Source of the DNA: Chlorophyllum brunneum
Lineage: Eukaryota; Basidiomycota; Agaricomycetes; Agaricales; Agaricaceae
Length of the DNA stretch: 64,000 nt
Direction of reading: 5' to 3'
Assembly: GCA_963576785.1 (NCBI GenBank)
Contig: OY756140.1
Coordinates: forward strand, 2,604,001-2,668,000
A model generated the notes under the pieces. It had not been told where the DNA came from. It searched no databases and saw only the letters and a list, made by a program, of their open reading frames with translations. Below are positions 13,955 through 31,301 of the stretch, in pieces (positions within the stretch are counted from its first letter, which is position 1; the number at the start of each line of letters is the position of its first letter). A program made the translations under genes and the position numbers.

Positions 13955-16442
13955 TTACCATACCAGCCACTCTCCATACATGTTCGGTCTCTCTCCACGG
14001 ATATACGACTCGAACGTCCGCTTCAGCACTGTCGCCCAGTCTAAGTCTCGCCGGTCTTGTTCCACGCCCTCTTCACCATCCAATACGGTGGCACCACCTT
14101 GAGCCTGCTCTCGTAGCGCTGCACGAGCTGCTCGTTCTCCAGCACGGAAATTGGGTCCAAGGTCAGGCCAGTTACGCACCGGATCGAAAGGCTTCCACCT
14201 GCGAGAGAATCAGTGGGCTAGAGGGGCCGGTATCAGGGTGATGAACCTACCAAAAGTTGTGGAAATGGTATGAGTATGCACCTCTAAAGAACCCTTCAAA
14301 TCCAAGTGCTTGTGGGGCGGCGCTCTCTGCTATGGGGGTATCAAAGAACTGCTCAAAGCTACAGGGGCAAACGCGACGATAAGGACCAAAAAGAGGCTAT
14401 AAATAGCTTCACTCACTTAGTAAAGAATGGCTGAGGGGGCCGCGATAACTGATAACTCTCTGTATTCAACCACGCTGAATCAAAAAGAGCATCTGGTAAC
14501 CTCAACAACAGGCTCTCTAGATGTGCCTCCCTCGCATATACCGACACTGTCATCGGATGGAAATCCAAATTATTCTTCAACGCAGTCCTGAACAAGAATT
14601 TGCCCAGAGCCGAGTCCTTGTTTAACTTGAGGACTGCAGTATTGTATCTTGACAATCGGGACCAACGATACGCGAAAGCACCACCCCAACCCCATAGCTC
14701 TTCCCAGTCTCGAAGGAAGATCGTGTCCGCGTCGAGATAGATACCACCGTATCGGTGGCACAGAATGAAACGTGCCATATCAGAGAGAATAACTGAGAGC
14801 TTGTCATACGTTGAAGCCGATTTCGACCCTGCACGGTCGACTATATCCTCTTTTCCCCTTGCTTCTACGTCTGTCTCATTGGCACTCGCCATCAGCGGAG
14901 GGGTTTTCCTCTTGTTAACATTGACCACATTCCCACCAGAGTTGAATAAATCCCTTGAACGCCATTCGTCCTTCAACTCTGGGATGCCATCCAACTCTCT
15001 CGTCGTGTTCCACATCTTAAATTCCACAATACCGTGAAACCTGGGGTGCAAAAACGGCGACGCCCAAGGATTTGACGCCAACTGGTCGAACATATCTTTC
15101 AGTGCGTTCGGATTGGGGACTGCAGCTGCTGGTCCTGGATTTATCCACATCCAGAATTTCGGTCGGCAAGCTGCATTCTCCGACCAGTGCTTCACATGTA
15201 GTCCTGTATTTTGAGTGAAGAGGAAACTCAAAATCGCGAGGTAAGGTTTATCCGTGAAGGGACCTGTCCAGAACATGTGGAATATCCGCGGATTTTCCGG
15301 ATCGCAAGGCTGTGGGAGCGATGCGTAGGGTTTATACTGAACTGGCCCCCGTAAATTAATGGGAGGTGACTCGGGCTCGACACCCCGCCGTTTGAAAAGT
15401 CCAGAATCTAGGTCGGAATTATCCTGCGGTCGTGCTTCTGGTCGTCGTCCAGCGACCGCATCGTCCCAAATATCCTCCTCGTCCTCCACTTGTCGACGTA
15501 CAGGTGCATGTGCTGTTGTGTTGTCCACCTTTTCGACATATATGTATTTCCAATCGTCTAGTCTCCCTCTGCGTAGTCGTTTACCGTTGTCCAGTCCTGC
15601 ACCAACACGTAGGACCTCTAGACAGTCCCTGACAAACTACCAAATTCGTAAAGACCTGAATTATAACTTCCAGGAAGAGCTGGCACGCACCTTTTTCTTC
15701 GAAAAGTCACAATGCTCCATTATAATATCTAAATCCGCGATACTCCCAGGTATAGGTCGAGGAGGGTAAGCGACATCAGGAGGTTGGCTCTGGATATCGA
15801 GGTATATGCGTTCCGGTCCACTTCCACGCGTCAATGTCACATATTCGCTGGCCTCTTCAGTCAAGGGTGAAGGTATATTAATCTTCCTTGGAGGAAGCGC
15901 TGGATTAACTGGCGTGTCCTTCAGCCGTATCTGCTCTGGAACTAGAATACATCTCAATCCCCGGTGCATCCCTAAAGAGTGAAAGATAGGAAAGTATACG
16001 CACTGGCTCTCCGACTTGGATAATGCCCACTCGCAATCTCCCACTTCCAAATCCTTTGTAAATCCTCTCGTCCGTACACCAATGTCCGTGAATCCTTCAC
16101 AAGGGGCCACTGCTTCGCATGCGTGCCAAAGCGTCTCGCCAGTGCGAAAACGAAGAAGAACGCCAGCATAATCAATAGCACTAATATTGAGCACCCCCGC
16201 TTCCTGCCAAATCGTCTCGTAGCATAATCATGTACCCTCCTTGGGTTTATAACGAATATCCGGAATGGGCGCGTGCAGCAAAATGGAATAGGAAGGCTGA
16301 GTCGTAGCCACCATGGCGCGAGATGTGGATGTAGCGCGAGTTTCTCCTGTACTGCAGAAGAACTGTTGGCGTAGACAGGTAATGAGTTACTATTTGAGTG
16401 GCCCCGTTGGGTCTCGCCCGAGAAATATGTAGAGAAAGACAT
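13955..16442 (-). CDS. Type II membrane glycosyltransferase with DXD motif (Gly_transf_sug / GT32-like)
   Basis: The start at 16442 gives a cytosolic N-terminus, a single anchor (CSILVLLIMLAFFFVFALA) preceded by RRFGRKRG, and a lumenal domain, the layout of Golgi type II transferases. The catalytic core shows NPRIFHMFWTGPF, KFWMWINPG, then LSDMARFILCHRYGGIYLDADTIFLRDW. The DAD of that last motif is the nucleotide-sugar/metal-binding DXD of the sugar-transferase family related to Och1 and alpha-1,4-glycosyltransferases. Introns are placed after YPSRRA (62 nt), after DFSKKK (acceptor GGTAG before FVRDCLEVL), and two more in the 3' part. The C-terminus ends YGEWLVW, stop at 13955. Acceptor sugar and linkage cannot be told. 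The 5' part carries an unusual acidic insert (EDEEDIWDDAVAGRR) before the core. Confidence 0.85.
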
Positions 16443-16724
16443 GCACAGGTGCGGCCCAAGTCAACAGGGCTGCTCGACGCCGCACAACAGAATAAAGTTT
16501 GTAGCTGGGATCAGCAAGTGGTTTAGATGATGATGGCCAACGAAGGCCAGTGTCCTGAAATTTCTGGGCGTGGGAAGCACATATGATGGCTCAGTCTCCA
16601 CATCATGCGCTCGAGTTTCAGAACGATCAACATTGCAGCGGATTCTATCAACACAATGGAAGCAGAAACGTGACAATTAGAGCTACACATGGCCTATCGT
16701 TTTTATTAAGTTACTCCTGCATTT

Positions 16725-18904
16725 TCACAGAGAACCAAGGGGCTGCAGCTCGAGATCGGCAGGGTCGGTGGGTACGGTTAGGATGCGGAGCGTGTTGGTG
16801 TGACCGAGGCCTCCCTTCCAGCCTTGCACTGCAATGATGGTGGCACCAGGTTTGATGATGTTGAGTGCCAAGGCGTTGCGAAGACCGAAGCGGATACGGT
16901 TGTCAACATCAGTCTGCCATTGGTGGGTTTGAACACCACGAGGTTCAGGGTACCAGAACGGGTAACAACCGCGGTGCAAGTGGATCTGTCTTGCAGTTTG
17001 CTCATTACGAGTAACTATGTTGGACAAATTAGTATTCTGGTCCAGGCAAGTGAAGACCGATGGACCCACCGGTGATGATGGGGATCTTAGGGCGGTATTT
17101 GGAGACGAGGCGAGCGGTGTTCCCACTTGTCGAGAGAACAAGGAGGGCTTTGGCATCCTGTTCAGCAGCAGCAGCAACAGCGGCAATGGCAACGGTCTCC
17201 GCAGTCTCTGTCGGACGCGCCTGGATGGCGCGCAAGTCATCATATAGAGGTGGATAGCATATCGCAGATTCTGCGAGCAAGCAGGTCTCCGCCATCATAA
17301 GGACTGACTTTTTGTTAGAACGAGGGCCCTCGTTTTTTTAAAGAACGTACCAGATTGGACGGGGTAAGAACCCTTGGCAGTCTCACCAGACAACATAACA
17401 CAGTCAGCGCCGTCGAGAACTGCATTGGCAACATCGCTGACTTCGGCACGAGTGGGGCGAGGGTTGTACTGAAAAGAATGGATTTTGAACCCGACAACAG
17501 TAAATGGATGGTGCTACTCACTGTCATAGACTCGAGCATCTGAGTCGCAACGATGACTGGCTTGCCAGTAATATTGCACTTGGCAATCATCATTTTTTGG
17601 GCAAGGAAGACCTGACTCGCAGGGATTTCAATACCCAGGTCACCGCGGGCAACCATGACACCATCGGCCTCCTTGAGGATGTCATCAAAGTTGCAGACAC
17701 CCTGCTCGTTTTCAATTTTGACGATAATCTTGACACCAGCACCATCAGGGCCGAGAACCTCGCGGATTTGCCTGACATCCTCGCCACGACGGATGAATGA
17801 CGCGAAGATCATATCAACCCCATTCCGAACACCAAACTGAATGTCAGCCTTGTCCTTCTCAGAGAGCGCAGGAAGGTCGACCTCAGTCTTGGGCAAATTG
17901 ACACCTTTGCGAGAGGAGATGTTGCCATTATTCAATGCGCGGACACGGACATTGGGGCCATCGATAGCAAGAACAAGGAGGGAGAGAATACCTGGAAATC
18001 ATGAAAAATTGATCTGGATCCGTTCGATGAAAATGCCTACCATCGTCGACATAGATAAGCTTGCCAGGGGCAGTAACCCTGGGGAGATTAGCCTAGATGG
18101 ATCAGTGTTTGTCACAGAACCAAGTTAAACCCTACTCACATAATCTACGAACATGGAGTGGTCATCGGAACTTTCACTGTACTTAGGATCAGTGGTAATG
18201 AGGAATTCATGACCAGCTTTAACAGGATACTGGGTAAAAGGATGAGCCAGATGAAATATACAACGGATCCTCAGAACGTATGACGTACATCTTTGCCATC
18301 CTTCGTTAGACCGGTCCGAATTTCAGGGCCTTTCTATCAGACAACTCGCAGATTAATGTGGGTTTCGGGGAGAAGACAAAGGAACACCGACCGTGTCCAA
18401 AGCGATGGCCACGGGGCGCCCATGTGGGTCATCTAGAGGGAGACAGTGAGGAAAGCGGGCAAACGGAATGAAAAGTCATAAACCGACCTTTAACCATTTG
18501 CCTAGTATTATCGATAACGCTCTGGTGGTACTCATAGGATCCATGCGAGAAGTTCATGCGGACTACAATGAAGCATAAGTCAGAAGCCGACGAGGTTTCT
18601 GTTGAGGAGAGTAGGAACCGATGTTTACGCCAGCACGACGAAGCTCAGCGAGCTTCTCGACAGTGTTGACCTTGGGGCCTGCTGATGTTGAGCGAACGCG
18701 TCTATCACGAGAGGTTTCCAAACCCACCAATCGTCGCTATAATGGACGTCTACGCAAACATAGTCAAGGAAGAGCACGAAGGAGGCGCGTCAACGGACAG
18801 ACCTTGCGAAAATACTTGGTGCTCTCGGTAGGGACGGGGGCATCAGAGACATTGAGAGTAGAGTTCCACTCGAGTTGAGAACGGATACCATCAACAGGAT
18901 ACAT
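16725..18904 (-). CDS. PYK1: Pyruvate kinase
   Basis: Last step of glycolysis: phosphoenolpyruvate plus ADP to pyruvate plus ATP, cytosolic. The start at 18904 gives [19 protein letters not shown]. Motifs seen across roughly ten exons: [42 protein letters not shown], the B-domain segment around VDDGILSL, then [27 protein letters not shown], the signature [45 protein letters not shown] and [10 protein letters not shown]. The C-terminal domain has [15 protein letters not shown] and an allosteric-site-like [10 protein letters not shown], ending ELQPLGSL at 16725. All catalytic residues appear present (Lys in KIENEQG, Glu and Asp in ARGDLGIE). Introns such as the one between TSIIATIG and PKVNTV are short GT-AG. 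Confidence 0.95.
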
Positions 18905-21151
18905 GATGGGCGGGAGAGAGGATAGATGTAGAAGAGGGGAGAGACAAAAAAACTTTTATGGCGTAATAAAGCGGAGCTAGAGAGGATGGAGTGATGTCGG
19001 AGGAACGGACTGTTGGGGTGGTCATCGATAACAATATACACGCCGAGCGGCAAGATCCTTCTTACGTCCCAATCCCTTCACCACAGCAACCTCTATTTGC
19101 AAACCGGCCATACTAGATGCAGTGCATGACGCATCTCCATAGATATCACAGCTGTGATCACTGGGTTGACGACATGGCCACCAGTCCGAGTCACTACTGA
19201 ACAACCACACGAAAGGCCACCAGCCCTACGTTGGGGTATCTCCAGAGAAGTAGCAACCAACAAAAGCTTTCAGGTGGTCATGCCATGCCATGCCTGCAGC
19301 TGGCGAGAAACACATCGTCTGCTCTGAGGTCGAATGCCGCAGAGGCCACAGCCAGAACTCTCGCTTAAAGAAAGTTCCGCTCCTAATCCGGTCCATGTGG
19401 TTCAAGCCGAGCGCTCGAGAAAAGTATCTCCGGCTGGTCGCCGACCTCCAGAACATTCATTCGTCTCCCTCATGACCTGCGCACCTGAACTCACCGCCTG
19501 GTGTGACTCATACCCCACTTCATGCACCGACACCTTCTACATTGGTAAGTGTCGCCACCAGCCCTGTGAATCCAGCAGAAGGGAAAGGTGTGGACCGAAT
19601 CACCACAACCGTCCATAGACTCCCGGATTGAAGAGAAAGATGAGGTTCCCTCTTCCCTCCGACAAGACGCTTCCGAAACTCGGTGACAGATATCTTCACA
19701 AAAGCCCGGCGGGTAACCGCATTCCAGGTACACGTTATCTCCACCCACTTAGCTTACAGCTACATCTACAGCCTGAAACGCCCCACGTTCTCTCTATTCG
19801 ACTCGCAGTTCACGCTCGTCCAACAGTGTCACTCTCCAGAAACATACATACATGGTAACGTCTGTCTCACTTCACGCAAGGGTAGTCTGTGTCTCCAGCT
19901 ATCAAGTCGCAACCACGCACCCGACCAACTACGTTAGAGCGACCGCCAGATATTATCGATCACGAATGCGGGGTTCCCGCGTATGAACTCCTCCGATCTG
20001 AATGTGACAAAGCGATGCGAGAAACCGGTGTTGGATGGAATCTGTATGATCTTCAGTGTTTCCTACCAGGAGGTTGTATCTACCATCCGCCATCTCGCGT
20101 TATCTCGAGAGCTGTCTTGTAAAAGCCACCTCTCTAGCTGAATACATCGTATACTATTCGGTGCGCCAAGAAGTACGATGTCTATAAGATGCAACCCACG
20201 GTATCTCCGGGCGTACCATCTCGCCCGCTACATATAGCATCGGGACGGGATATTCGGGGACCATACAGCCTGGGTGGCAAACACATGGTGTTCATGACTT
20301 GAAGAAACACAAGGATGTCATTTGCATGCATAGATGCAAGACGGCGATTTTTACTGCTGAATGCACGCCAACAGCCTCAACCGTTTTTTTTTGACAATTG
20401 AGTCCTCGTATATACCAACCGTCTGTCCTATGGCACTGGGTGCCGTTTGAGATCTGGGATCTAGCGGCCGAAGGCAGAAAGCATGGCCCATAGGCTGTAT
20501 ATCTATCTTTGTCTCTGGCTTTGCCCGACGTTCTAAGGCGGATCGGATCGTCCGTTGACTGCTCAGTTGAAGGTAGTTTTCAGGTCTCCTTTCGTTTTAA
20601 GGCTGATTTTTGCTGGTCCAGACAGACGTACACTCTAATTTTTTACGAGCCCGGCTGGTATGATGACCCCGTCGCGTCGGTTATCTGGTGCCTTACAACG
20701 GGGGGGTTCGCCTGGGCCAAACTGACACGGTTCGCGAATGCTCTTCTTGAGGTCATCTATAGTATACTGCCCCTAAAATATGGATGTTGGTCCATCACGC
20801 GATGGCCGTGGGTGACCATTTCCTGGGCCATTGGCAGGTCAAGCCTAGAGTACGGGACTTGCAACCCGATGTCTGGGGCTCTGCATGCATACGTGGATAG
20901 CAGTAGTTGCTATTTACAACAGCACTTCGTGGCGCAGGGCGCTGCGATCTTGGCTAGTTGTAGCTATAACTCCAAGCGGTGGCGCTCTGTACCTGCTGCT
21001 AGCTCCAGGATGTTGCCGATTTGGGTACATAGATTCTACCGAACTAAAGTGCATAATACGATAGCGATACAACACTGGTAGAAGCCAAAAATAGAGGTGC
21101 AAAGGAACACATGGAGCCACTGACTCAACAGGAAGTATGAGACGACATTCG
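18905..21151. other. Gene-poor region, about 2.2 kb
   Basis: Lies between the pyruvate kinase start and the MCM3 stop. The first part is the pyruvate kinase promoter. Open frames on both strands at 19.0-20.1 kb give only ambiguous coding signal (see the separate entry). A plus-strand frame of 190 codons at 20509-21081 is rich in Trp and Ser and shows no domain or start context; I do not call it a gene. A run of nine T residues lies near 20387-20395. No tRNA and no transposon ends were seen. Confidence 0.4.
19469..20122 (+). other. Possible exons of a small Cys-containing protein, or a decayed gene
   Basis: Short protein-like segments occur in order on the plus strand: CAPELTAWCDSYPTSCTDTFYIG followed by a GTAAGT donor near 19545, then a frame around FSLFDSQFTLVQQCHSPETYI, then ECGVPAYELLRSECDKAM and GVGWNLYDLQCFLPGGC before a stop at 20122. 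Cysteine spacing and the WNLYDLQC ending recall secreted enzymes, but I could not join the pieces into one frame with credible introns of normal length. It may be a real multi-exon gene, a pseudogene, or chance. No function is proposed. Confidence 0.22.
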
Positions 21152-23893
<2,742 letters not shown>

Positions 23894-24647
23894 GATAGGC
23901 GGAAAAAAGAGAACCGGAGAGCTCGTCAGATAAGAGAAAGGGCTGGGGAATTGTCATTCAGGTCACGCCCACCGCGTCCTCATTAACGCGTCAACAACCC
24001 CAATCAGGGTCAAATCTGTCCAAGCATGTGTCCACTTCCGTCAACACCTTGGACGTCACTCGGGAACTTCCAGACTCTGGGGCATGATGTCGTCTCACAC
24101 AACCGCCCCTCGTTTCTATGTGGAATTTTCATATTGCTGGATGTATTCGTATGCATTGTCCTTCAATAGGGACGGAACGGGGTCCACCCCCACCCGGGTC
24201 CTGTGGCCCAGAGCGGAGAATTTCTATCTTTGCGCGAGTTTTGCCACAAGAACTGAAACCGCCTATAGTATCCCCAAACATGTCCCTGAGCTATTGCGTG
24301 AGGAACCCCCTTTTCCCCAAAGTAGGTCTTCAGGTCGTACACATCACTCACTATTTTTATCCTCTGGGTTTTGGTTCAGCGTCTATGCTCTTCTATTCAC
24401 AAATTCACCGTCAAATGTGTAGAGATTGTTTATGTTAGGCAGATAACGGAGATCGGCAATGACAGGTGGCTTATATTATCATCGGGAGCCAAGGAGTCTC
24501 GGAAGGTGTTGCCAAGAAATAACGTATCGTTAAACTGGTGGTATACACTCAAGTCAGAGAGAAAGTATGTGGATAATAGAATAGGGATCAAGCGCATCAA
24601 TAAAGGTCCATGTCGTCAAATCATTCATATACAGACAAGATACCCGG
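23894..24647. other. Intergenic region, MCM3 promoter and 3' side of the repeat-protein gene
   Basis: About 750 bases. The right-hand half lies beyond the stop of the minus-strand repeat protein. Short plus-strand frames at 24084-24438 have no support. The only recognised element is the ACGCGT box near MCM3. Confidence 0.45.
23986..23991. promoter_or_regulatory. MCB (ACGCGT) element upstream of MCM3
   Basis: Perfect ACGCGT hexamer 93 bases before the MCM3 start codon. In yeasts this is the MBF (Mbp1/Swi6-type) site that drives G1/S transcription of replication genes; MCM genes are known targets. Use in this fungus is inferred. Confidence 0.55.
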
Positions 24648-25258
24648 TCACGCCTGTATGACAAAAATCAGAAACCACCATAACGAACAGACATGGTTAA
24701 ACGAACCTGCTCAAGCTTCCTTCTCCAGTCTGAATTACCACGCGCTTCAATCTCTGTACGTTTCCAATCCGAGTTACCGCGGACATCAACTTCAGATCTT
24801 CTCCAGTCAGAGTTTCCGCGACTGTCTAGCGCCGCACGCTCTGGCAAAGCCGCATTTCTTCTCCAATCCGAATTTCCCCTAGCCTCGACACGGACGTTGG
24901 TATCAGACCGTCTCCAGTCAGAATTGCCGCGAGCGTCGGCTTCTGACCGTCTCCAATCCCTATTTCCGCGTTCATCGACTTCCCCACGCCTCCAATCAGA
25001 GTTACCTCGTCGCCAATCACTGTTGCCCCTTCGCCAGTCTGAGTTTCCGCGTCGCCAGTCCCTGTTTCCCCTACGCCAGTCCGAGTTTCCACGCCGCAAG
25101 TCAATGTCGCCGACAACAACAGGAACAGGAGCAGGCTCAGCAACCTTACAAAGATATAATTTAGCTCGATCACCAAGGGACTGAAAGTGTACGCCACATA
25201 CCGGAAGGGCTGAGGCCGCAGCAGCAAGGAACAACGAGAGGAAAATGGCAAGTCGCAT
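24648..25258 (-). CDS. Secreted KEX2-site repeat precursor with eleven GN(S/R)DW units
   Basis: Not a family I can name. The start at 25258 gives a signal peptide (MRLAIFLSLFLAAAASALP); an in-frame ATG at 25270 would add four residues. A 57-nt intron (25203-25147, GTATGT...TTTGTAAG) joins ALP to VAEPAPVPVVVGDIDL; it is a multiple of three without stops, so retention stays in frame. Then come eleven copies of RGN(S/R)DW(R/K)R. The first five are tandem heptads; the next six have spacers such as GEVDE, SEADA, SDTNVRVEA, SEVDV and TEIEA. Every copy ends in Trp followed by RR or KR, ideal Kex2 sites, so Golgi processing should free pentapeptides GNSDW/GNRDW and extended forms. A likely last intron (GTTCGT...CATACAG, branch CTGAT) ends the protein KLEQA at 24648; without it the end is 24668. 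It could be a RiPP-like, pheromone-like or defence peptide precursor, or a structural secreted protein. Confidence 0.8.
24989..25093 (-). repeat. Five tandem 21-bp coding repeats (RGNSDWR units)
   Basis: Five consecutive 21-base units each encode R-G-N-(S/R)-D-W-R. Arg uses CGT, AGG, CGC and CGA; Gly uses GGA, GGG, GGC and GGT; Ser uses TCG, TCA, AGT and TCT. Nearly all differences are silent, so the peptide is better conserved than the DNA. Confidence 0.85.
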
Positions 25259-25316
25259 ACCTAACAGCATATGAGAGGAAGCGATATGAAGTGAGAATGC
25301 TGGGGTTGAGAGGGGA

Positions 25317-25398
25317 GAAACCCAGAACCTGGGTTGCTTTTATGCGTACCGACAGATTTGGCAAGACGGGTATAAATGCGACCCATGTGTTGGGATTC
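25317..25398. promoter_or_regulatory. Imperfect inverted repeat upstream of the repeat-protein gene
   Basis: Arms 25317-25345 and 25370-25398 match at 22 of 29 positions when one is reverse-complemented, with a 24-base loop. The left arm itself contains the dyad AACCCAG-aac-CTGGGTT (25318-25334). It lies 60-140 bases before the start codon of the minus-strand precursor, the usual promoter position. A symmetric regulator site is possible; an RNA hairpin in a 5' leader is the alternative. A TATAAAT sequence inside the right arm faces the plus strand. Confidence 0.5.
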
Positions 25399-26518
25399 GG
25401 GGAAGGAATGTCTATCCGCTTTTCCGCATGTGGTATCCAGAGTACCATGTCATTTAGGTTCACGTGGAATCTTATTTGGTTGTCGGTCCGTGACATGTAT
25501 ATTTCGTTTTGGGGACATGTCGTCATGCTTGAAGCTCAAATTTTCCACTTTCTTGCAGAAGATTGCTTTAATGAGGCATTCTGGGCGGCAATTCTTCCGT
25601 GCCCAATCAAGTATTTGTCGTGATGCTGTGATAGCCAACTGTGTCGATCGTGGAATGAAAAATGAGGGTTATTTTAACTATATCACCATTCCTGACCAAT
25701 ATGGTGCTTCTTTACCGTGTTACTGGTGCCTTAAGGCTAGGAGGGGTTTGCACATGTTTTTCTACTTTGGCCGTTTGGTCTTCGACCACCGTTGTGTGCC
25801 AGGCGGGTACGAGTATTAATGTAGTTATTCCTAGAGGGCTGAGATGAGTCTGTCTCACACCAATCTAGCGTAGGGATTCGGGAGGGGGGTACCTTTCATG
25901 CCCACACATGGTCCGGAAACTCTAGTTCCACTTCTCACATGAAGGGTGCACAACGATGGATGTGGCACTTTTGTTCCTCGTCCGGGTTGTATCGCGTCTT
26001 GTTCAATGGAATTGGATGGGTCTGATGGGCTGCGCAAACTTTGCATCTGCATTTGGACTTTGTTAGTGACTATGTCCAGTCAGGAAGCGTCCGTTGACAG
26101 GTGGAGTTTCAATGTAAGTGAAAATTCGATCACGATATGCCTTTTGAAGGTGGATGGTTTCCACGACGATGATCAAATTCGATCATGGGAGGGGCGATTG
26201 GCCAGGATTGGCCCTGATTGGTCCCTACATCATAAGGTTCTGCTCGGCATGAAGCAATGTGGGAGAACACAACATGCTTACCAGATTTCGGCAGCAAGCA
26301 AATACGACGATTTTTTTTTGGTGACCCTGTCGCTTATCGGGAACCTCACAAAGGCCTGAGGGAGATGAGGTGTTACATGAGAGTTCTGACCAAGTGTGCG
26401 ATACTCCGGGGTACCTGCAGACTTCACAGGTCTCGTTACTTCGATGTTCAACTGACATGACATGTGAGTGATGTCATGAGTATTATTCAACATATTATTG
26501 ATACAATAGGGGAAGTAT
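25399..26518. other. Intergenic region, no gene supported
   Basis: About 1.1 kb between the repeat-protein promoter and the PRP17 stop. Plus-strand frames at 25376-25819 and 25946-26359 (147 and 137 codons) have no domain, signal peptide or splice support. Confidence 0.4.
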
Positions 26519-28595
26519 TCAGTCCTATCGGAAAGTCGAGGTTAGCATGATTACAAGGGTAAAGTGAGGAGAAATATTACCCATAACTTAACAAGGCCAT
26601 CCCATGAAGCAGTAATAACTTTTGACTGGGTGGAATCGTAAGCACTGTCACCTCTGCAGCTACGAGAGGCTTACTGTTTCGTGTGGTAGCCATTCGTGTG
26701 CAATGACGACTTTGGAATGGGCTTTGAGTCGCGACTTGATTCGACCAGTTTTCCAATCCCAGTAAACTACATTGCCTTCGCCATCACCACTGCTTATCCA
26801 TTTGCCGTCAGGGGAAAACCCGACTTGGCATGCGTATCCAGCGACAGAGTGGCCCGCAAATCGCTTCTTGCGGTTCTGACGGAAGTTGTCGGTGCTGTAT
26901 ACAAGAATTTGATTATCAAGCGACTGAGCGGCAAGGTACTTCTCTGTCAAATTGCAAATTAGCACATGGCAATTTCAAGAATCCTGCACAAGTGACGTAC
27001 TTGAGGGATGGAGAGTGACAGAAGGCATTGAATGCATGTGGGGTTCAGCAATATACTTGATGACCACGGGTATGTCGAAGTCCCAAGCACGAATCGTCTT
27101 GTCATCCGAGGTAGTAACGAACCGCCGGTTCTCATCCACAAACGTGATCGTATTCACAGGCCCAAGATGTTGGTCGTATTCTTGTGTGATTTCACCGGAG
27201 TTGATATCGTACTATTACGCCACAAGTATGAATGATGGCTTCGAGGAGGCCATGGAGAACATACCTGTATGATTTTCTTGTCTGACATCCCTGCAAGGAA
27301 AATGTGTTGCTTGTCTTCATCAGGATGAAACTTCACGACGTAAGGGATTTTCCCGTTGCTGAATCGTTTCAGACATTGTCCCGTTTCGGTGTCCCATAAT
27401 TTCATCTGGCGGTCATAGCCGCAAGAAAGGAACTGTCGACCATCGTTTGAGAAGCAGATATCCTTGACAGCCTTGACGTGACCATGAAACGTCCGGAGGC
27501 AGTTGCCGTGGGTGTAGATGTCCCAGAGCTGGATCCAAGCCATGAGAGATCATATCCATTTTACAAAATACGTCGTGCATACCTTTATCTTCGTGTCCAT
27601 GGACCCGCTCATAAACAAATGCCCTGTCTCTGGGAACGTTCGGATAACCGAGACGCCTTGGGTGTGGCCCGTCCAAGTGTGAATACAGGTTTTGGGAATA
27701 AAACATTCTTGCGTGCCCGCTTCTTGTAATAGTTGAGGTGCTTCTGCGGTTGGAGGGGGCATGTACGTTCTTCCCTGGTAGTCCGTTAAAGACGTGCCAT
27801 GAAATACTGAAGTTTCCTGGCCGACAGCACCCTTCTTGGGCTTGGCCTTCTTGACTGTATACTCAGGTTCCTCTTCCTCTTCTTCATCTTCTTCCTCCTC
27901 ATCACCAGCAGTAACTCCCGCCAAAAAGTCCACCTGGTTATCTTCCCCTTTCCAAGACGCCCAAGGCCCAACATAAGCACCCTCTCCGTCAACGACCTCG
28001 AGATCTCCCTTATTCTCCCGTTTCCGTTTTAGCTTTTTACGCTCATGTCTTGACGCTGTAATAGTATCTATTGTTTGGAAGTTGTTGGATTTTGCATCTT
28101 GTAATGACCCTATAATTGCCGGAGCATTTGGATCCACAGATGGGTTTGCCGAATAGCCGAGGATGGAGTGAGTGAGGTGTTGTGCACGGAAAGCATGCTC
28201 GGACATAGACTGCTCTTCTACATGACCAGCCAACGCATTTTGATTAAGGAAGCGATTCTGGTCACCAAATGGGTTTTCCGGTCCTTGAAGCGGAAGCATC
28301 ATGTCTTGATACGGGATGTTCACGTTCATTTGGGTGTCCGTCGGCCGTGTAACAAGAGAAGTCATATTCAAAGGATCCTGCAAGTGATTTTAGTACCGCT
28401 TAAAGCTTTGAACGGAAGAATGCACACCTCCGCCAGTACATGGGGTGCAGCATCTGCTTTTCCAGATTTGGGCTCTGTCTCCTCCTTGACACGGAGCTTT
28501 TTATTGGTAGGCAATGATGAGATTCCAAAAGCATCTTTTGCAGCGGATGCGGTAAGTTCAGCGTCGTCGGAGGAGTAGTCGAGGGTTAGGGACAT
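26519..28595 (-). CDS. PRP17: Pre-mRNA-processing factor 17 (CDC40), WD40 splicing factor
   Basis: WD40 protein needed for the second step of splicing. The start at 28595 gives [21 protein letters not shown]. The N-terminal half has the conserved stretch [21 protein letters not shown], basic and acidic low-complexity parts ([12 protein letters not shown]; a run of about fifteen Asp/Glu), and [10 protein letters not shown]. The C-terminal half is a seven-blade WD40 propeller ([105 protein letters not shown]). The last intron (GTAATA...GATAG) leaves only GAC TGA, so the protein ends LWD at 26519, exactly as the family does. The gene is divergent from the Myb/C2H2 regulator with 167 bases between start codons. 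Confidence 0.95.
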
Positions 28596-28762
28596 GTCGG
28601 TATAAGCAAGTTGCGGACTTGAGCGCGTCGGCTGAGTGACTCTGTGTCACAGACTACCCAGATCGGGAAGCAGTGATGGATGTGACAGGCTCCGGCCCAT
28701 TGCAGTGTTGAGAGCGCTGCAGCTTCACCTCTGTGTCATGATTTCGTGATTGGTCTCTCCCC
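28596..28762. promoter_or_regulatory. Divergent promoter PRP17 / Myb-C2H2 regulator
   Basis: A 167-base space shared by two divergent genes. No specific site was recognised. Confidence 0.4.
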
Positions 28763-31301
28763 ATGGCAGAGAGAAACGTTGGTCGACAGTGGACCGAACA
28801 TGAAGGCATATTTCTGCCCCTTCCAACGCCCGCTCTTACTCACTATTGTATCCAGATCAGTTGCTCAAAGATGCTGTAGCAAAACATGGCGAACATGATA
28901 ATTGGAAGAACATCGCACTGTGTATCCCAGATCGAACCAACAAGGCCTGTAGAAAGGTTTGCCTACCTCTTGCAATACCCTGACTCTCAGCACTAATTTT
29001 TCTCCATAGCGCTGGTTGCATTCGCTTTCTCCCAACGTCAAGAAAACGGCTTGGACACCCGAAGAAGATAAATTACTTTTGGATCTTTACGACCAATATG
29101 GTGCCAAGTGGTCGACAATAGCCCGCTCGATATCAGGGAGGACCGACGATGCATGTTCGAAACGCTACAGGGAGGCCCTTGATCCGAACCTCAAGAAGGA
29201 TGAGTGGACGCCCAAAGAGGACGAAAAACTGCTAGAGGTCTTCGGCCGTATTGGAGGCAAGTGGGGTCAGATTGGTCAAGAAATGAAACGCAGTGGACTT
29301 GGTTGCAGGAACAGGTGAATTTCTGAGAAGCTGTTACCGCAGATTCGATCTTTAACGTCACTCCTAGGTGGAGACTATTAGAGAGAAAGAAGGCGGCGGC
29401 ATTGAGGGTGGGAGGTCGGCCTGTTACTTCTAACAGTGGCCCCAATACCACCTCCAAGAGTTCTTCAAATTCCCCCTCAGTTGCTTTGCCCAACAATGGA
29501 GTCCCAACTCCGCCAGACCAAATCCACCCATTGCCTTCACCAGCCATACCATCCATGAGCCAGCCGACACCGCCTCCGACCCGGCCTCCGCCACTCCCAG
29601 AGGAGGGCCCTCCACCAGAGGGTCAAACAACAGACCCAGGACAATCATCACCTGGGCCCATTTTTGACTCATGGCCACCATACTACCCCCCCGAATCATA
29701 TCCCATACACGGCTCATCTTACAACTCCTCTCAGTCTTTCCGGCTTCCTTCTCCCGAAATTGTGTCCGTCTCTCCTCACGTTGCACCGTTCCAATTTTCA
29801 TCGTCGTCTCTAAGTGCGGCCCTATCGGCCCCTCCACAGCTTCCACGACCCTTACCGCCAATCTCAAATGAGCCACCAATAATGGACGTGCAATTGGAAC
29901 CCGATTTTCCATCATCAACGGACCACACCTCGAATACAGATCAACATCACGAGGATGACGATAATTTGATGTCGCTGGACGACCCACCCATATCCGTCAC
30001 CACTGAGACAGGTCCTTTAATCGAACGCTTTACTCCTCTGTTACCAACAGTTTTCACTTCTCCTCTGTTACAACCACCAATTTCACTCAATGTACAACAT
30101 CCATCAGTTCCCATTTCCCCCATTTCCCATTCCAACGACATACCTATCCAACTTGACCAGATTCCCGACTTTTGGAAATCGCCAGGTCCCTTGGGCGACC
30201 TTCTCGCTCCACTATTTGAACAGTCGCCCCAGTCTAACACGGACAATAATCTACTTGTGGATACCAATTACGAGGACTTATCATCCGCCTCATCTACTCC
30301 ATTTTTGTTTGCATCATCGCTTTCTCCAACATCAAGTCCGAACGTCTCCTCACCTGTAGATCTTCCAGGCGGCGAGCAACCCACAGGCTCAGGTTCCTTG
30401 TTATTTTCAACGTCCCGCGAGCCGACTCGTCCTCATGTCCAACCTGCAAGAAGAAGTCGACCGACCTCTACTAAGAAGCTCCTCAAAACCAGCACTCCGA
30501 TGAGACTTTCATCATCTCTTCCTCTGACTGCAGAGTACGCTTCCTCCCCCCCCCCCCCCCCCCCTTCCCATTACTTAATCTAATGCCCTACTCTCTAGTC
30601 CTTCCGTCAAGCCCTACGCGTGTGGGACTGAAACATGCTGGCCAGTCAGTGCCACAACAAGTCGCTCTTGCTTCACGACATCAAAGGAACTCTTTGATCA
30701 CAACAAGAACGAGCACAGCGATGAACCATATACTGAGAAGCCTTACCGCTGTGCCCTTGCAGGCTGTGGCAAATCATGGAAGGTGTGTTAGTGTACCCTA
30801 CAGTCAGATTTAGTTTGCTAAAATTAGGGCCATTCTCACAGTCAATTAACGGCCTTCAATACCACCTTCAAATGTGTGTCCAATCTCCAACACAATCTAC
30901 AAATAGTTTTCTGATCCTGCCATCCTTCACTGTCACCACAGATCAACAGCTCACTTCCGAACAGCTTTATCAACGAGGTTCTCTAGTCAATCGCTAAATG
31001 AGGAAAACGGTTCTGGTACGGACCCTGAGGTAGATGACAATGAACGAGAGTTCGTGTGTCATATCCCCGACTGTTTTAAAGCATACAAACATTCAAGCGG
31101 TTTGAGGTATCACATGAAACATGTCGGTTTTACCCATTCTCCCCCCCCCCAAAGTATTGATCACACTGACATTGATCAATCTTCCAGGGACATCCGCAGA
31201 ACTTACCAGCACAACTATCAGAAGTTCCCCCGGCACTCGCCCGTCAGATTCCGACGAAGACGAGGCGTATGCGGCGAAAAGCACATTCTGAGGAACTATG
31301 A
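28763..31301 (+). CDS. Predicted Myb (three SANT repeats) and Sfp1-like C2H2 fusion transcription factor
   Basis: The start at 28763 opens MAERNVGRQWTEHE, the beginning of a Myb repeat completed after an intron (28806-28855) whose donor reads GC rather than GT. Repeats: DNWKNIALCIPDRTNKACRKRW; TAWTPEEDKLLLDLYDQYGAKW; DEWTPKEDEKLLEVFGRIGGKW. A long Pro/Ser-rich exon (29367-30538), a likely activation or linker region, stays in frame and splices (GA|GTACGC, poly-C intron) to zinc fingers: PYACGTETCW..FDHNKNEH; YRCALAGCGKSWKSINGLQYHLQ; FVCHIPDCFKAYKHSSGLRYHMKH, then GHPQNLPAQLSEVPPALARQIP, typical of Sfp1-like factors. The stop is at 31301. Each domain is clear. That they form one protein rests on an uninterrupted frame through the large exon and a good intron. 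It could be two genes if that intron is not used. Expected to be nuclear; targets unknown. Confidence 0.8.
30546..30564 (+). repeat. Poly-C tract inside an intron
   Basis: Nineteen C residues in a row lie in the intron joining the Pro/Ser exon to the zinc-finger exons of the regulator. A shorter run of ten C (31141-31150) sits in its last intron. Such runs are prone to slippage and sequencing error. Confidence 0.85.

Follow-up and report, generated by a model that had tools for sequence, protein, structure and literature searches.

A candidate KEX2-processed precursor of repeated GN(S/R)DW peptides in the mushroom Chlorophyllum brunneum

The window analysed here is a 64,000-nucleotide stretch of the Chlorophyllum brunneum genome (C2:2604001-2668000; genome of 38.9 Mb in 14 contigs). 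On its minus strand, at 24648..25258, lies a three-exon gene that runs from an ATG at 25258 to a stop codon ending at 24648 and encodes a putative secreted repeat precursor of 166 residues, as indicated by the spliced model, the repeats and the relatives of the protein. From N to C terminus, the product comprises a signal peptide, a short pro-region, eleven GN(S/R)DW cores and the tail KLEQA. A preliminary description of this DNA had placed the gene at 24648..25258, and the spliced model matches that interval exactly after removal of two introns; the unspliced minus-strand open reading frame covers 24668-25270 and 200 aa. Exon 1 (25202..25258, minus strand, as are all parts of the gene) encodes MRLAIFLSLFLAAAASALP, the signal peptide, which was assigned from hydropathy values alone (a mean of up to 2.92 across nine residues) and is probably cleaved behind ASA, at residue 17; cleavage of signal peptides follows an A-x-A rule. 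Exon 2 (24707..25144) carries the pro-region VAEPAPVPVVVGDIDLRR together with all eleven cores and ends in ..RRKLEQ. Exon 3 (24648..24653) consists of GCG TGA (i.e., the last residue, A, and the stop codon) and follows from the inferred intron 2.

Intron signals of the form found in this gene are typical of mushrooms. Intron 1 (25145..25201; 57 bp) reads GTATGT...TTTGTAAG and is an insert absent from P0006, a 75-aa protein of Pluteus cervinus (AALPVAEPAPVAGEDLRRGNSDWRR) in which ALPVAEPAPV runs uninterrupted over the predicted exon 1-exon 2 junction. Because P0006, which is known from protein alone, reads straight over this junction and agrees with it, intron 1 is externally supported. In a second relative, P0003, ALP and VTEP are separated by 18 residues, and in the unspliced window sequence 19 residues separate ALP from VAEP; both read-throughs start with VC, end with K and are largely unlike in the remainder, and their flanks agree. 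The common VC start and K end are what the splice signals themselves would give. Intron 2 (24654..24706; 53 bp; GTTCGT...CTGAT...CATACAG) has an acceptor placed by sequence signals only, and in two further relatives, P0002 and P0004, the reading continues past a comparable donor context, QV(R/C)L. The pro-region behind the signal peptide (25207-25091, minus strand, spanning intron 1) is a series of X-P/X-A steps, LP-VA-EP-AP-VP, that resembles the substrates of STE13-type dipeptidyl aminopeptidases; its counterpart in P0006 reads LP-VA-EP-AP-VA.

The repeats form a tandem part (24987..25093; cores 1-5), where RR is the only joiner, and a spaced part (24720..24970; cores 6-11), where each core is preceded by an acidic spacer with a terminal single arginine, the first such spacer lying just upstream (24971-24986). 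The eleven GN(S/R)DW cores claimed earlier appear in the spliced model as nine copies of GNSDW and two of GNRDW. An arginine precedes all eleven, RR follows ten and KR one; DW(R/K)R ends every unit, and SDW ends nine of the eleven cores. For KEX2-processed repeat proteins (KEPs), the class to which we assign this gene, the definition calls for at least three near-identical repeats split by KR or RR, and we found eleven cores and twelve dibasic sites. A degenerate DNA pattern for the repeat unit had 11 matches in the window, all within the gene, and none in 100 shuffles, and the unit did not arise in any of 20,000 shuffles of the residues of the protein.

The eleven units (264 bases) contain 53 nucleotide differences from their majority sequence, yet only 3 of 88 residues are altered. 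Random placing of 53 substitutions changed a mean of 35.1 residues and never fewer than 24 (5000 trials). Third codon positions vary at seven of the eight codons in the unit, first positions at four and second positions at two. Pairwise dN/dS was set aside, since dS could be used for no more than 13 of the 55 pairs. The small number of residue changes against the many nucleotide changes indicates that the repeats have come to differ at the nucleotide level with the minus-strand protein conserved, and these results demonstrate that the repeats are maintained by selection at the protein level. A chance or non-coding repeat is ruled out by the shuffle controls and by the 3 residue changes in 88 despite 53 nucleotide differences. 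Opposite the repeat gene, the plus strand holds an open frame of 163 aa (24693-25184) that mirrors the repeats; the codon-position variation favours the minus frame.

Relatives keeping the repeat, a check proposed in the preliminary description, were sought by protein search, and four proteins with the same core were found. The search depends on shared five-residue words and like length. Its first round (E <= 1) returned four matches, three of which have the core: P0002, with ten cores, the first of them, as read, having no basic site before it; P0003, whose cores comprise five exact copies, two NPDW variants and a decayed one (GNW), and which has one site reading W-ER; and P0004, a partial reading with three cores. 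The remaining match, P0005 (E 0.46), lacks a GN.DW core and was set aside. An alignment search (E <= 10, 8000 candidates scored) gave at least six matches, among which P0006 was new, while P0007 and P0008 (E 0.13 and 5.9) were dropped as basic repeats without the core. P0006, the hypothetical protein BDN72DRAFT_890582, has four GNSDW(R/K)R cores. It shares with the window gene both these cores and the ALPVAEPAPV that follows a hydrophobic start; it differs in its length of 75 aa, its four cores and its lack of spacers. Pluteus cervinus, an agaric of the family Pluteaceae, is the nearest named relative by the repeat gene among the matches listed. The core is thus known from five sequences including the window, of which P0002-P0004 lie on short contigs.

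The six acidic spacers align by position between relatives. The true order scored best of 720 for the window against P0002, and best of 120 in each of two other pairs, the window with P0003 and P0002 with P0003. The best partner of a spacer stood at the same position in four of six cases (window and P0002), five of five (window and P0003) and five of five (P0002 and P0003); for the window and P0004 the count was one of two, and pairs with P0004 say little, since they offer only one or two spacers. Judged by these alignments, the order of the acidic spacers is conserved among relatives.

With P0006 as query, only P0006 was matched among 206 candidates, and a paralogue search of the C. brunneum genome at the protein level (E <= 1, three candidates) matched the gene alone. 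Scanning the same genome with two DNA patterns, each requiring a DW(R/K)R pair within a limited distance, produced ten matches, nine of them in the gene and one on C6; the last reads D-W-N-R-stop and was rejected as a chance match rather than a paralogue, and a backwards control pattern gave one match in one run and none in the other. Pattern scans returned 9 stretches from viral_contigs and 61 from genome_contigs, with no relative in either set. Pfam and NCBIfam held no family for the protein, PDB gave a single weak match (E 0.15), and Rfam had no match over the window at gathering score.

We next consider how such a precursor would be processed. In-silico dibasic cleavage agrees with the earlier claim, yielding bare pentapeptides in five cases and extended forms in six. 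The description of the latter as extended forms with acidic leaders is right for the dibasic products; as end products they are less certain, since they may be recut at the single arginine before each core. This arginine stands directly before the core in 19 of 20 spacer-core junctions, counted by eye in four sequences (six in the window, six in P0002, five in P0003, one of them before the decayed core, and three in P0004), and the sole exception is R-GA-GNSDW in P0002. Several KEP products of C. cinerea expressed in Pichia were reported as cut after RR and, apparently, after single arginines (PMC9769878). The conserved single arginine and these cuts in Pichia together suggest that the extended forms are recut, and that every one of the eleven cores may be released as a bare pentapeptide. 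Alternatively, the single arginine could be a mere remnant of an RR site that was split when a spacer was inserted.

Peptides of this general kind have been described before. The name KEP goes back to Le Marquer et al. 2019 (PMC6339444), and Umemura 2020 (PMC7329392) extended the survey of the class; such proteins are reported as widespread in fungi, with functions mostly not known (PMC9769878). The impression in the preliminary description of a core without a described counterpart does not hold, because XSDW (PMC6339444), DW[K/R]R (PMC10106355) and -AADW (PMC9769878) are already published. The exact string GNSDW itself had no match in the literature text searched (i.e., text as distinct from figures and supplements), and passages of PMC7567395, PMC9233826, PMC7550596 and PMC12698804 say nothing of the motif. 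The XSDW repeat is reported as conserved in KEPs of Basidiomycota, in an ectomycorrhizal fungus and in saprotrophs (PMC6339444), and these KEPs, known here by description, resemble the window gene in their secreted precursor, KEX2 sites and short repeated core ending in SDW; the GN prefix, GNRDW variant and ordered acidic spacers are features recorded for the window gene. Its cores end in SDW, or in DW before K/R-R, as is characteristic of the XSDW / DW[K/R]R class. Umemura type G-1/P-2, the most widespread, was dropped from the comparison: high tyrosine content is noted for this type, which is known to us by description (PMC7329392).

Two further systems bear on the comparison. MiSSP8 of Laccaria bicolor is a small secreted protein having DW[K/R]R repeats with a KEX2 site (PMC10106355, PMC13430161); the motif is reported from proteins of saprotrophs as well, and knockdown of MiSSP8 is reported to impair mycorrhization (PMC7105643, PMC7329392); its expression rises in ectomycorrhiza and in fruiting bodies (PMC8708209). 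The window gene has the repeated DW[K/R]R and the KEX2 site in common with MiSSP8, a likeness at the level of the described motif. No Laccaria-named match appeared at E <= 10 in the P0006 search or the alignment search (8000 candidates scored in the latter; most entries nameless), and a homology with MiSSP8 is conjectural. Vogt et al. 2022 (PMC9769878) report -AADW peptides detected in L. edodes, P. ostreatus and P. eryngii, in fruiting bodies. L. edodes KEP 2599 and P. ostreatus KEP 1091723 are, like the window gene, Agaricomycete precursors with short repeated cores ending in DW; however, their cores (SGTGEASAADW, SGVAADW) are longer than its pentapeptide, and the STE13 dipeptides present in Pleurotus KEPs are absent before its cores (PMC9769878). 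In the same work, knockouts of six C. cinerea KEPs had no phenotype in axenic growth or fruiting, and the peptides tested inhibited none of the bacteria tried.

The gene anatomy supports the earlier proposal of a secreted Kex2-type repeat precursor with a common GNxDW core. We infer cleavage, release, linearity and function as follows. Signal peptidase would remove the signal peptide and the precursor would enter the secretory pathway, where KEX2 in the Golgi would cleave after every RR or KR and KEX1 would then take the basic residues off the C-termini. In the spaced part, the single arginine ahead of each core probably serves as an additional site of weaker cleavage, through which the spacers would be removed and every core would become a pentapeptide. 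The predicted secreted product is many copies of the linear pentapeptide GNSDW plus two of GNRDW, most likely working outside the hypha, either between hyphae or toward other organisms. The C. brunneum genome has one kexin P-domain match (57 of 86 positions covered), one DPPIV_N match and 44 exon matches to S10 carboxypeptidases, all at the level of domains and not of identified orthologues. Many of the S10 exon matches lie within about 240 kb at C2:3529751-3767430, possibly a local expansion.

Together, these data make it very probable that the gene is a KEP of the Trp-ending (XSDW / DW[K/R]R) mushroom kind, processed into secreted linear pentapeptides that most likely act outside the hypha. 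The KEP class and the DW-ending type of core were both in print beforehand; what the window gene adds is a clear pentapeptide core, a layout in two parts (tandem and spaced) whose spacers are ordered, and a single arginine that is conserved. Its compact precursor, near-invariant pentapeptide, relatives, clear gene structure and short list of exact masses make it a simple test case for the function of Trp-ending mushroom peptides, and also one for asking whether KEX2 or a partner cleaves at single arginines in mushrooms. The calculated [M+H]+ values are 578.2205 for GNSDW and 647.2896 for GNRDW, 1207.4974 for the extended form SEADARGNSDW and 1277.5756 for TEIEARGNSDW, and 492.1936 and 562.2719 for the spacers SEADA and TEIEA. 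More speculatively, the precursor could carry two layers of message, in which GNSDW is freed everywhere by dibasic and single-arginine cuts and acts through a receptor of its own as a signal across mushroom species, while the six ordered spacer peptides have a role of their own; we regard this extension as a long shot.

In Ustilago, Kex2 cleaves Rep1 into water-repellent peptides that aerial hyphae require (PMC7329392), and MiSSP8 peptides of Laccaria have been proposed to act in hyphal aggregation (PMC10106355). The window gene could accordingly be a source of repellent-type structural surface peptides, or its uncut repeats could act in the wall. The predicted products are, however, polar and five residues long (or 11 to 18 without single-arginine cutting), and we think this reading very improbable.

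Modification of the peptides is a further alternative. Pfam scans (E <= 0.001) covered all six frames at 17001-29400; the minus strand was also scanned at 14401-17000, with 29400 as its upper limit, and the plus strand in all frames to 32000 and in two of three to 44400. The nearest matched genes are MCM3 (23.84 to 21.16 kb), a WD40 protein (27.7 to 26.7 kb) and pyruvate kinase (18.0 to 16.8 kb), all on the minus strand, and Myb (28.9-29.2 kb) on the plus strand. Farther out lie a DXD glycosyltransferase on the minus strand (14.8 kb) and, on the plus strand, Prp19 (34.8-35.6 kb), a TauD-family dioxygenase (41.4 kb) and ALG10 (44.3 kb). The dioxygenase and glycosyltransferase could in principle modify peptides. 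They lie 16 and 10 kb off, however, with housekeeping genes between, and we see no cluster; the dioxygenase exon is just above its cut-off (27.4 vs 27 bits). The preliminary description had found no UstYa-like or other tailoring gene nearby, which stands for UstYa but does not extend to every possible enzyme, given the dioxygenase match.

A whole-genome search, positive in C. brunneum and in none of 14 control genomes, found seven UstYa (DUF3328) exon matches and none within 1 Mb of the window; the nearest (C2:3752922) is about 1.08 Mb beyond it, which rules out a UstYa cluster at the repeat-gene locus and makes linear peptides likely. The matches fall in three places (C2:216249-223048, C2:3752922-3757188 and C10:66498-67938) that may mark dikaritin-like clusters. 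That the peptides are cyclised or otherwise modified (as dikaritin-type or other RiPPs) by enzymes from other loci in the genome or from more distant parts of the contig is favoured by the existence of these UstYa-like genes and by the nearby dioxygenase, and tryptophan can serve as a cross-linking residue. Dikaritin cores such as those of ustiloxins, phomopsins and asperipin-2a carry tyrosine, but there is no tyrosine anywhere in the 166-aa protein. Furthermore, the distance between DUF3328 and KEP genes averages 3.09 genes (Umemura, PMC7329392). We consider such modification very improbable.

An alpha-type mating pheromone precursor, suggested by the repeat architecture and by the X-P/X-A steps with which the pro-region starts, is the least credible reading and was rejected as unlikely: the STE13 dipeptides (X-A/X-P) expected after a KEX2 site are absent, no X-A/X-P runs lie ahead of the cores (NA starts one of six spacers, and five cores directly follow RR), basidiomycete mating pheromones are described as a-type (PMC6339444, PMC9769878), and the C. 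brunneum genome has 20 STE3 exon matches, 19 of them above cut-off, and no STE2 match, although the STE2 search matched no control genome either. STE3-type receptor exon matches cluster at C10:1452704-1567615, with three more on C1, and this cluster may be a mating-type B locus.
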